Program-made: the position numbers and the translations under genes
DNA from: an uncultured Ectothiorhodospiraceae bacterium
GTDB lineage: Bacteria > Pseudomonadota > Gammaproteobacteria > Nevskiales > Oceanococcaceae
Assembly (NCBI GenBank): GCA_937141935.1
Contig: CAKZQS010000042.1
Location: 186,001 to 250,000, forward strand
Reading direction: 5' to 3'
Length of the DNA: 64,000 nucleotides
In this document: positions 58,186 to 62,260 of the stretch, in pieces
Numbering within the stretch: the first letter of the stretch is position 1
Layout of the letters: each line of letters starts with the position of its first letter
The notes under the pieces: model-generated
Database searches by the model: none
What the model was told of the DNA's origin: nothing
The model's input: only the letters and a program-made list of their open reading frames with translations

Positions 58186-58689
58186 ATGAGCGCATTGCCC
58201 CGTTTGGTGCTGGTCGTTGCCAGCGCCGCCAACGACGTCATCGGCCACCAGGGCGGCATGCCCTGGCACCTGCCGGCCGATCTGGCCCACTTCAAGCGCC
58301 TGACGCTGGGCGGCAGCGTGCTGATGGGTCGGCGCACCTTCGACAGCCTCGGCGACCCACCGCGACCGCTGCCGCGGCGGCGCAACCTGGTGCTGACCCG
58401 CGACGCGAACTGGCAGGCCGAAGGGGTGGAGCGGGTGGCCGGGCTGGACGAGGCGCTGCGCCGCGTGCCCGGCACCCTGCATGTCATCGGCGGCGCGCGG
58501 GTCTACGAGCTGGTCTGGCCGCAGGCGCAGGTGCTGCACTGGACCCGCATCGCGGCCGAGCCGCCGGGCGACACCTACTTTCGCCCGGATCTGAGCGGCT
58601 GGCAGCGGGTGGCGGTGGAGGAACGCGCCGCCGATGAGAAGAACCCCCACGCGCTGCGCTTCGAGCGCTGGGAACGCGGCGCGCCCTAG
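58186..58689 (+). CDS. folA: Dihydrofolate reductase
   Basis: A 167-residue NADPH-dependent enzyme regenerating tetrahydrofolate. MPWHLPADLAHFKRLT contains the catalytic acidic residue (Asp in PAD), GRRTFDSLG binds NADPH and IGGARVYEL is the second glycine pair, with Ala in place of the usual Gly-x. The length matches E. coli FolA. It converges on pdxH with a 52-bp gap. Confidence 0.95.
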   Translation: MSALPRLVLVVASAANDVIGHQGGMPWHLPADLAHFKRLTLGGSVLMGRRTFDSLGDPPRPLPRRRNLVLTRDANWQAEGVERVAGLDEALRRVPGTLHVIGGARVYELVWPQAQVLHWTRIAAEPPGDTYFRPDLSGWQRVAVEERAADEKNPHALRFERWERGAP

Positions 58690-59580: not shown

Positions 59581-60600
59581 ATGAACCTGGAGGAGCTGAA
59601 TCGCACCGCGCGGGCCCTGGTAGATAACGCCCGGGGCATCCTGGCCGCGGACGAGAGTTCGCCGACGATCAAAAAGCGCTTCGACACCATCGGTGTGGAA
59701 TCGACCGAAGAGAACCGCCGCGCCTATCGCGACATGCTGTTCACCGCCGATGGCATCGAGTCGACCATCAGCGGCGTGATCCTGTACGAGGAAACGCTGT
59801 TCCAGTCCTCGGCCGACGGCACGCCCTTCGCCAAGCTGCTGGCCGACCGCAACATCATCCCCGGCATCAAGGTGGACAAGGGCGCCAAGCCGCTGGCGCT
59901 GTGCCCGGGCGAGACGGTCACCGAGGGCCTGGACGGCCTGCGCGACCGCCTGCAGAAGTACTACGAGGCCGGCGCCCGCTTCGCCAAGTGGCGCGCGGTC
60001 ATCACCATCAGCGACGAGGCCCCGACCTCCACCTGCATCGACACCAACGCCCACGCGCTGGCCCGCTACGCGGCGCTGTGCCAGGAGCAGGGCATCGTGC
60101 CGATTGTCGAGCCGGAAGTGATCATGGACGGCGCGCACGACATCGAGGTGTGCGAAGAGGTCACGCGGGCCACGCTGAGCGCGGTCTTCGCCCAGCTGGA
60201 CGGGCAAGGTGTGGAGCTCGAGGGCATGTTGCTGAAGCCGAACATGGTGATCAGCGGCACGCAGTGCCCGGAGCAGGCCAGCATCGAGGAGGTGGCCGCG
60301 GCCACCGTGCGCACGCTCAAGCGCCACGTGCCGGCGGCGGTGCCGGGCATCGTCTTCCTCTCCGGCGGTCAAAGCGATGAACTGGCCACCGCCCACCTGG
60401 ACGCGATGAACCGCATGGGCCCGCACCCCTGGGTGCTGTCTTTCTCCTACGGCCGCGCGCTGCAGGCCGCGGCGCTCAAGGCCTGGGGCGGCAAGACCGA
60501 GAACGTGGCCGCCGGCCAGCGGGCCTTTGCCCACCGCGCCCAGTGCAACGCCGCCGCCGTGCGCGCCGAGTACAGCGCCGAGATGGAGTCGGCGGCCTAA
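59581..60600 (+). CDS. fba: Class I fructose-bisphosphate aldolase
   Basis: A 339-residue Schiff-base aldolase of glycolysis and gluconeogenesis, of the eukaryote-like class I type. ILAADESSPTIKKRF, GIKVDKGAKPL, the Schiff-base K219 in MLLKPNMV and FLSGGQSDELAT are conserved. A strong GGAGG site precedes the ATG, and a terminator closes the gene. The terminal Tyr found in animal enzymes is absent. Confidence 0.95.
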   Translation: MNLEELNRTARALVDNARGILAADESSPTIKKRFDTIGVESTEENRRAYRDMLFTADGIESTISGVILYEETLFQSSADGTPFAKLLADRNIIPGIKVDKGAKPLALCPGETVTEGLDGLRDRLQKYYEAGARFAKWRAVITISDEAPTSTCIDTNAHALARYAALCQEQGIVPIVEPEVIMDGAHDIEVCEEVTRATLSAVFAQLDGQGVELEGMLLKPNMVISGTQCPEQASIEEVAAATVRTLKRHVPAAVPGIVFLSGGQSDELATAHLDAMNRMGPHPWVLSFSYGRALQAAALKAWGGKTENVAAGQRAFAHRAQCNAAAVRAEYSAEMESAA

Positions 60601-60647: not shown

Positions 60648-60673
60648 AAAGGGGGCTACGGCCCCCTTTTTTT
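60648..60673 (+). terminator. Intrinsic terminator of fba
   Basis: GGGGGC/GCCCCC stem with TACG tetraloop, extended by AAA/TTT pairs and followed by a T run, 48 bp after the fba stop. Confidence 0.93.
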
Positions 60674-61053
60674 ATGTGCGATCTGAGCTGTCCCAACTCT
60701 ATGACGCGAGGGCTCGGGGACCCCGGCGGCGCCAGCCGCGGCGGCCAGGGTCGGCGCGAGGGGCTCGGGGTCATGCCCCTGCGGCCGGGCCTGCGCCGCT
60801 GCGCGGTTCCCGGCCAGTCCCGGGCGCTTTGTGGGGCCGGCCCGACAGGACATCCGTGTCCTGGCGGGCCTCAATCCGCCGTCCGGGCGGATTGTCCCCA
60901 GTTGCGCCCGTACTGTCCGGCGCAGACCCTGACAGTCCGCCGGGGCATGACCCCGAGCCCTGATCGCGAAGTGGGCTCGTGGGCGCCCGGCGCGGGGACT
61001 GGGCAAGGATGCGCGGACGCAATGAAAGGGCGCGCGCGGCCTTACTCCAGGCC
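60674..61053. other. Gene-free convergent stretch
   Basis: About 380 bp between the fba and ompA-like terminators with no credible gene. It holds the nested inverted-repeat element at 60761-60960 and further degenerate copies of its end sequence (GGGCTCG) at about 60710 and 60973. Confidence 0.75.
60761..60960. repeat. Nested inverted-repeat element, 19-bp perfect arms
   Basis: gggctcggggtcatgcccc at 60761-60779 is the exact reverse complement of 60942-60960. Between the arms lie further perfect stems: GGCCGGG (60783-60789 with 60809-60815), CAGGACA (60846-60852 with 60857-60863), CAATCCGCC (60872-60880 with 60886-60894) and ACTGTC (60912-60917 with 60931-60936). The whole could fold as a multi-branched cruciform. 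It resembles a MITE- or REP-like element or a structured RNA; no known consensus was recognised. Confidence 0.8.
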
Positions 61054-61083
61054 AAAAAAAAGCCGCCCGAAGGCGGCTTTTTT
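61054..61083 (-). terminator. Intrinsic terminator of the first OmpA-like gene
   Basis: A GCCGCC/GGCGGC stem with a TTCG loop on the minus strand is flanked by A and T runs, so it could act in both directions. It lies 18 bp past the ompA-like stop. Confidence 0.92.
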
Positions 61084-61100: not shown

Positions 61101-62231
61101 TTATTCTTCGATCAGGTTGATCTCGACGCGACGGTTGCGAGCGCGCTGGGCCGGGGTCTCGCCGGCATTCAGCGGACGGCTCTCGCCGAAGGCGCGAGTG
61201 CGGATCTGATTGGCGCCAACGCCCTGCGCGCGCAGGTAATCGGCCACCGAGTTCGCACGACGCTTGGACAGGTCGAGGTTGTAGGCCTCGGTGCCGGTGC
61301 GGTCGGCGTGGCCGTTGGCGATCGCCACCACGAAGTCACGCTCTTTCAGGTTGGCAGCCACCACGTTCAGCGCGTTCTTCGCCGGGCCGTTGAGCTCGGC
61401 CGAGTCGAAGGCGAAGTAGATGATGACCGTTTCCGGAGCGGGGCAGCCCTCGGCGTCGACCGGGGTGCCGGCCGGGGTGTTCGGGCAGCGGTCCTGGCTG
61501 TCCGGCACACCGTCGCCGTCGGAGTCGGCGGCACCGGCGGTGACCAGGCAACCGTAGGCATCAACGGCCGGGCGCGGCGTGTTCGGGCAGCGATCCAGCG
61601 AATCCGGCACACCGTCATGGTCGCCATCGTTGCCGGCACCGTCGCCGCTGTTGATCACGACGATCTGCGGCTCGGGCGACAGGTCGAAGCTCACACCCAG
61701 GCCGAACATCAGCTCGGTCGGGTCGGCCGTACCACGCGCCTCGTCCCACAGCAGCCAGCGGTTGCGGGCGTCCAGCGTGATGGCCATGCGATCGGTCACG
61801 CCGATATCAAAGCCCAGACCCAGTGCCGCGTAGCCGTCGTTGGTGACGGTGTAGGGCGAGGTCAGGTCGACGGTGCGGGCCGCGCCCACGCCGGCGATCA
61901 GGTAGGGATGCACGGCGCCCAGCGTCGGCAGCACATGGAATTGGTAATCCAGGCCGAGGGTATATTCGTCCTGCCAGGGGGCGGTGGCGGGGTCGTCGCC
62001 CTCGAACTCCTGGTAGCCGACCAGGCCTTCCAGCACCAGCCAGTTGGCCAGCGGGTAGGACAGGCCGACGCGCGCGCCGATGCCGTCATCGACTTCGCGA
62101 GTGTCCTCAAGCGTGTACTGGCCGAGGATCGACAGCGACCAGCCAGTTTGATTCACATCGGCGGTGGCCTGCGTGGTGGCCGCCAACAGCGATACACCGG
62201 CAGCCCAGAAAATACCCTTGTTATTGATCAT
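61101..62231 (-). CDS. OmpA-family outer-membrane protein with TSP3 repeats
   Basis: A 376-residue protein: signal peptide to about residue 25, an eight-strand OmpA-like barrel (about 28-200), two calcium-binding thrombospondin type 3 repeats (DGDHDGVPDSLDRCP and DSDGDGVPDSQDRCP) and a C-terminal peptidoglycan-binding OmpA domain (IANGHADRTGTEAYNLDLS). It is probably an abundant structural porin-like protein tying outer membrane to wall, like OprF. ATG 62231 has a GGGAG site; a GTG 9 nt upstream is possible. It has its own TATAAT promoter. Confidence 0.93.
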   Translation of the reverse strand: MINNKGIFWAAGVSLLAATTQATADVNQTGWSLSILGQYTLEDTREVDDGIGARVGLSYPLANWLVLEGLVGYQEFEGDDPATAPWQDEYTLGLDYQFHVLPTLGAVHPYLIAGVGAARTVDLTSPYTVTNDGYAALGLGFDIGVTDRMAITLDARNRWLLWDEARGTADPTELMFGLGVSFDLSPEPQIVVINSGDGAGNDGDHDGVPDSLDRCPNTPRPAVDAYGCLVTAGAADSDGDGVPDSQDRCPNTPAGTPVDAEGCPAPETVIIYFAFDSAELNGPAKNALNVVAANLKERDFVVAIANGHADRTGTEAYNLDLSKRRANSVADYLRAQGVGANQIRTRAFGESRPLNAGETPAQRARNRRVEINLIEE

Positions 62232-62260
62232 TGAGGTCACTCCCGAAAGTTGTCCTGCGC

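Follow-up and report, generated by a model that had tools for sequence, protein, structure and literature searches.

The window discussed here, that is, the whole 64,000-nucleotide stretch of DNA that was analysed, contains a class I fructose-bisphosphate aldolase gene on the plus strand and a gene for an OmpA-family outer membrane protein on the minus strand, which converge on a palindrome of 200 bp (Table 1). Both genes have terminator-like hairpins that lie outside the palindrome and bracket it, in agreement with a previous sequence-only reading of this DNA, which had placed the element between convergent terminators. The hairpin on the OmpA side (61056-61083) was missed by the terminator scan, and its assignment is based on an inverted repeat with A/T runs and on conservation in the sister species. 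The perfect 19-bp outer arms enclosing further stems, also described in that reading, were confirmed: the arms extend to 24 nt at 96% (60761-60784/60937-60960), and the nested stems include one of 9+9 nt, which is perfect (60872-60880/60886-60894), and one of 14+14 nt at 93% (60839-60852/60857-60870).

Table 1. Features of the aldolase-OmpA gap and its flanks, in window positions.
Feature	Position	Strand	Basis
Class I fructose-bisphosphate aldolase, flanking gene	59581..60600	plus	PF00274
Aldolase terminator-like hairpin, outside element	60648..60673	plus	Terminator scan; also in element-free sister locus
Whole unit	60761..60960	minus (GGA-loop strand)	Inverted repeats; fold z -9.3; nine family copies
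Outer arm, left half, perfect 19 bp, partner 60942-60960	60761..60779	none	Inverted repeat
Full-length R1 match, 146.4 bits	60778..60945	minus	Covariance model R1; window copy itself among R1 builders
Conserved segment GGGAACCGCGCAGCGGCG (minus-strand reading)	60794..60811	minus	Near-invariant across nine own copies
RF01731 (TwoAYGGAY) core, model positions 45-113, 46.2 bits vs gathering score 43	60833..60898	minus	Rfam
Second GGA hairpin, loop ACGGAT on minus strand	60839..60870	minus	Inverted repeat, fold, covariation
First GGA hairpin, loop CGGAC on minus strand	60872..60894	minus	Inverted repeat, fold, covariation
Outer arm, right half	60942..60960	none	Inverted repeat
OmpA-gene terminator-like hairpin, outside element	61056..61083	minus	Inverted repeat and A/T runs; also in sister locus
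OmpA-family outer membrane protein, flanking gene	61101..62240	minus	PF00691

That such nested symmetry is beyond chance is supported by both repeat counts and folding energies. Across the 64 kb of the window, no inverted repeat other than the palindrome has arms of at least 16 nt within 260 bp, and none at all arises in 20 dinucleotide-shuffled versions of the full sequence. Folded as RNA, it reaches -148.5 kcal/mol on the plus strand (z -10.2) and -153.6 kcal/mol on the minus strand (z -9.3), with none of 200 shuffles as low in either case; the minus-strand fold consists of long outer arms, stacked stems and two hairpins with GGA in their loops. A separate perfect inverted repeat of 14 bp, with arms about 140 bp apart, is found in coding DNA at 58484-58637; about one repeat of this kind is expected per shuffled window.

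On the basis of its score, the core of the palindrome is a match to RF01731 (TwoAYGGAY, clan CL00106), a candidate RNA family of unexplained function, presented in the consulted part of its description as a probable RNA of the human gut, Gammaproteobacteria and Clostridiales (PMC2864571). Only a part of the model, which itself includes a long outer stem, is matched by the window copy, and four of the six RF01731 matches in the same genome pass the gathering score. The two hairpins with GGA in their loops, the AG linker and the closing stem are shared with the family, and the two hairpins recur in alignments to relatives, together with the AG linker and a CGG segment. The window loops differ from two strict AYGGAY motifs, since ACGGAT fits whereas the other loop is CGGAC; in the copies of a congener the first loop is CATGGACG/CATGGATG, and the GGA within both loops is conserved among copies. 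Also unlike the family, as far as the consulted parts of its descriptions go (PMC4333381; PMC2864571), is the dispersed and paired layout reported below. Virus-borne TwoAYGGAY elements were considered and set aside: among 24 stretches carrying the pattern, 17 were scanned with Rfam and none of these reaches the RF01731 gathering score. The same holds for carriage on plasmids or phages, the window copy having no DNA match in the plasmid or phage collection.

A DNA search of the genome to which the window belongs (G000) returned, besides the window copy, eight diverged copies and five short matches, two of which are the window copy's own arms, i.e., nine full copies of the unit. These nine copies, aligned on the strand with the GGA loops, were used to build a covariance model, R1, which recovers the same nine at E < 1e-24, the window copy being thus matched by a model that it helped to build, slightly inside the 200-bp span noted previously. 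R1 also finds 18 copies in one congener. A further partial match in G000 (35.8 bits, C4:173148-173209, L031) covers the two-hairpin core only and is possibly a decayed tenth copy.

The nine own copies alone display compensatory changes in 30 of 57 predicted pairs. When 45 R1 matches from four genomes of the family are aligned (44 distinct rows), 48 of the 57 pairs change on both sides, 92.8% of cells are paired and none of 500 shuffles reaches any of five measures, in an alignment that is fitted to R1 and whose cells are not independent, the copies being related. The sequence-only reading had held that a single occurrence with no compensatory changes would speak against a mobile or structured element, and what is found is a multi-copy family whose pairing is maintained. 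Among 42 distinct rows, with the same dependence between cells and leaving out two of the 45 matches, low-scoring hits on a deletion remnant (L108), the strand with the GGA loops has 75 G-U cells against 20 A-C cells. Therefore, the strand that folds is the GGA strand (minus in the window). A cruciform or duplex DNA site bound by a protein, e.g., a chromosome-organising palindrome, would agree with the very high stability of the palindrome on either strand; nevertheless, conserved loops and the prevalence of G-U over A-C mark one strand, unlike a symmetric duplex site, and this reading is highly improbable.

The outer arms are paired in all nine own copies, though their sequences differ. For this reason, GGGCTCG, named as an end motif in the sequence-only reading, is not one for the family: copies of it do flank the site (GGGCTCGGGG at 60710 and 60761), but elsewhere in the genome the arms of the element read quite differently. 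The unit is short, non-coding and present in many dispersed copies, as is typical of MITEs; its terminal repeats are paired within each own copy and different between copies; in another genome, G145, composites of two units do possess conserved end repeats, of two interchangeable types. Some copies show, on visual inspection, bulges of the GTTAGG type; these are internal to the fold and not at its outer ends, and an attC-like site was set aside. Neither a mobilising transposase (searched as PF01797, with no match in G000) nor a target-site duplication (searched at the ends of the G145 composites, where no consistent one occurs) was identified.

Among known mobile repeats, the closest parallels are found in two systems. 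According to the consulted part of PMC5896051, the Coxiella MITEs QMITE1 and QMITE2 are likewise short non-coding repeats with many copies and strong folding, some of which give rise to small RNAs, a precedent for MITEs yielding sRNAs; here, unlike in these, arms differ among copies, a target duplication is not seen, and head-to-head heterodimers with conserved loops occur. The REP/BIME elements moved by RAYT (Y1) transposases resemble the present family, as far as the consulted part of PMC3733652 describes them, in palindromic units often opposed in inverted pairs, in a preference for convergent and co-directional gaps away from divergent promoters, and in G-T pairing. Nonetheless, a unit of about 200 nt organised as a three-way junction is not a REP of 20-40 bp, and the RAYT domain PF01797 has no match in G000 and in seven further genomes of the 19 that bear the element. 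The matching RAYT envisaged by the sequence-only reading could be saved only if the enzyme had been lost, or missed in a draft genome, and movement by a RAYT is scarcely credible.

RF01731 is patchily distributed in Gammaproteobacteria: in a search run with stricter filters, which scored few candidates per genome, 19 of 369 genomes gave matches at E <= 1e-4 (16 above the cut-off), and none was found in 14 control genomes. When sixteen genomes were searched again at E <= 0.01, the number of matches per genome ranged from 3 to 47; among the 150 matches listed there are 21 neighbours within 600 bp, 20 of them head to head, one tail to tail and none in tandem. In the four genomes of the family, R1 finds eight head-to-head pairs and no other close neighbours. 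The pairs of order- and class-level relatives are embedded in near-palindromic stretches, about 0.58-0.75 kb long, whose outer parts carry additional hairpins. In four of the G145 loci (L168, L170, L172, and L173) the outer hairpins enclose a further repeat, nested and resembling an insertion, GCAGATTTTGC...GCAAAAATCTGC with tandem TGGCATGAA. Two units of G327 placed 3.7 kb apart had suggested an autonomous transposon carrying genes, an idea abandoned because each unit, by eye, belongs to its own head-to-head composite. Outward terminators at the composite ends were also discarded, two being present in L174 against 0.9 expected in shuffles, which is not significant.

In named GTDB contigs chosen by a pattern derived from the frame, 20 R1 matches fall in 14 of 21 contigs, with head-to-head pairs in four and same-direction neighbours in two contigs of one MAG; because the frame pattern chose the contigs, only pairing and layout are independent evidence in this set. 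In seven stretches from these contigs one other hairpin replaces both GGA hairpins. Related paired elements with the same frame and a single non-GGA hairpin are carried by the MAG contigs of L148, L154, L157, L158, and L161. The related named matches are mostly uncultured gammaproteobacterial MAGs, in an answer from which the records closest to the window genome may be missing. As regards the literature, no description of head-to-head TwoAYGGAY elements was found among the open-licence PMC papers listed.

A comparison of arms indicates how pairs are copied. In the two pairs of the own genome, three of G001 and six of the eight listed for G145 (two with a shorter match being excluded), the two units of a pair, left against right, share 0.75-0.82 identity, while matching arms taken from different pairs reach 0.81-0.94, always in a single arrangement, consistent or crossed. 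From local inverted duplication the opposite would be expected. Since arms are more alike across pairs than within them, the pairs are heterodimers copied whole, and the composite, rather than the single unit, appears from these identities to be what spreads. No convincing partner was found near the window copy by a filter-free model search of its surroundings; solo units such as this one would be half-elements.

Element-free alleles, whose absence from relatives would have argued against insertion according to the sequence-only reading, do exist. In the sister species G001, the aldolase and OmpA genes still form a pair and retain both terminators, which are separated by 188 bp versus 380 here, and the element is not found in that gap even with filters off; the aconitase site is empty as well (229 versus 851 bp). 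Both cases are records of presence and absence, in which gain is not polarised against loss. The third own site compared (CoA-transferase) is uninformative, the genes being arranged differently in G001. More generally, the seven own sites and the 15 of G001 have no match by flanking proteins, except for one paralogue hit of 34%. The own sites L015, L018, and L019 are flanked by acyl-CoA/fatty-acid genes (thiolase, CoA-transferase, desaturase, and acyl-CoA dehydrogenase), which may merely reflect how common such genes are.

A different situation is observed between G002 and G003, the closest species pair, where all five G002 sites have a G003 counterpart by flanking proteins (that of L098 is L107), and the three compared directly keep their orientation at 0.98-1.0 identity; movement is therefore infrequent at that scale. 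One head-to-head pair of G003 (L105 2538-2911) is represented in G002 by the remnant L108, from which 227 bp have been lost between short AGCC repeats, as expected for the decay of a long palindrome. At one shared intergenic site (L099 2479-2658 in G002, L106 2501-2682 in G003), the element is in opposite orientation, with 79% identity including flanks, 0.86 in the core and 90-97% in the flanking DNA, a difference which we read as in-place inversion or replacement. Across a contig break, G003 has seemingly two opposite-facing units (L103 6-174 and L107 1-111) where G002 has one.

Genes at the sites were called with a codon-usage caller seeded with genes judged real, and the 31 sites with both flanks called, in which three of the four G003 sites repeat G002 sites, comprise 15 convergent, 16 co-directional and no divergent gaps. 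In the own genome six of seven sites are convergent (five when the weak ORF at L020 is not counted), versus 9 of 54 adjacent gene pairs in the window; for the other adjacent pairs of the fetched loci the convergent fractions are 4/37 (own genome), 3/32 (G001), 5/12 (G002) and 5/19 (G003). Each site being downstream of at least one gene, the element might be a cis-acting 3'-end or terminator-like RNA structure serving its flanking genes, and RF01731 is indeed typed as Cis-reg in Rfam. But with respect to co-directional genes the element points either way (about six solo units sense and about eight antisense, some sites being counted in both G002 and G003), flanking genes come from unrelated families, and the aldolase and OmpA genes have terminators of their own that persist without the element, so that a cis-acting role is very unlikely.

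The GGA loops suggest another function in RNA. CsrA-sequestering small RNAs of the CsrB/RsmX-Y-Z type are encoded by one or few dedicated genes per genome. They have in common with the element GGA in hairpin loops, and differ from its many dispersed, often paired copies, for which no promoter was found. Stand-alone small RNAs that sequester CsrA/RsmA through their GGA hairpin loops, with dispersal being incidental, would account for the conservation of GGA in the loops of two hairpins and are compatible with the strand bias; CsrA binding has moreover been proposed for RF01731 in the consulted part of PMC4333381. CsrA is encoded in all 19 element-bearing genomes, though it is common in the class, and the idea therefore survives without being favoured. 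Genomes differ widely in their number of copies, there is turnover of sites, and in seven relatives' stretches of similar frame, chosen by that frame pattern, one other hairpin occupies the place of the two GGA hairpins. A sigma-70-type promoter is absent from the window stretch and from one composite, a weak test given that GC-rich shuffles also have practically none. On balance, dedicated CsrA-binding RNAs are unlikely.

We favour the view that the window copy is probably a solo unit belonging to a dispersed element that resembles a MITE, is non-autonomous and is selected for the fold of one of its strands. What the sequence-only reading had proposed as MITE, REP or structured RNA is thus upheld for MITE-like dispersal, because of the many copies, the element-free orthologous sites and the pairs dispersing as a unit, and for conserved strand-specific folding; it is not upheld for the REP/RAYT version. 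The complete form would consist of two structured units arranged head to head, the GGA strands having their 5' ends turned toward one another. Such a near-palindrome, roughly 0.5-0.75 kb long, would be copied as a whole into further intergenic sites, presumably through a protein acting in trans. Insertions lie downstream of at least one neighbouring gene, the window copy being situated between two intact terminators. Selection appears to keep the fold of one strand, namely long arms, stacked stems and the two GGA-looped hairpins, and not the arm sequence; hence, the partner probably recognises a folded single strand, RNA or DNA. Against this explanation stand the one tail-to-tail pair, the same-direction neighbours in the two contigs of one MAG, a G003 site that seems to hold two units facing the other way, the sites shared by G002 and G003, and searches that brought up neither a transposase nor a target-site duplication; RF01731-type cores of distant genomes may have other histories.

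A more far-reaching proposal, which we advance as tentative and somewhat doubtful, is that these elements represent a widespread and so far unrecognised class of gammaproteobacterial mobile elements that inherit structure and not end sequence. A head-to-head, cloverleaf-like pair would be moved as a folded single strand or via RNA by some enzyme, copies would rewrite their arms yet keep them paired, RF01731 would be the recognition core, and the GGA loops might tap or titrate CsrA.

These results allow an orphan Rfam family to be re-read, in the sense that gammaproteobacterial TwoAYGGAY behaves as a dispersing head-to-head palindromic element and not as a dedicated regulatory RNA gene. If the mobilising protein sees the fold rather than the end sequence, arms that differ and are yet perfectly paired would constitute a natural experiment in structure-guided DNA movement. 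With TwoAYGGAY elements it also becomes possible to test concretely whether CsrA-binding RNAs originate from mobile repeats.
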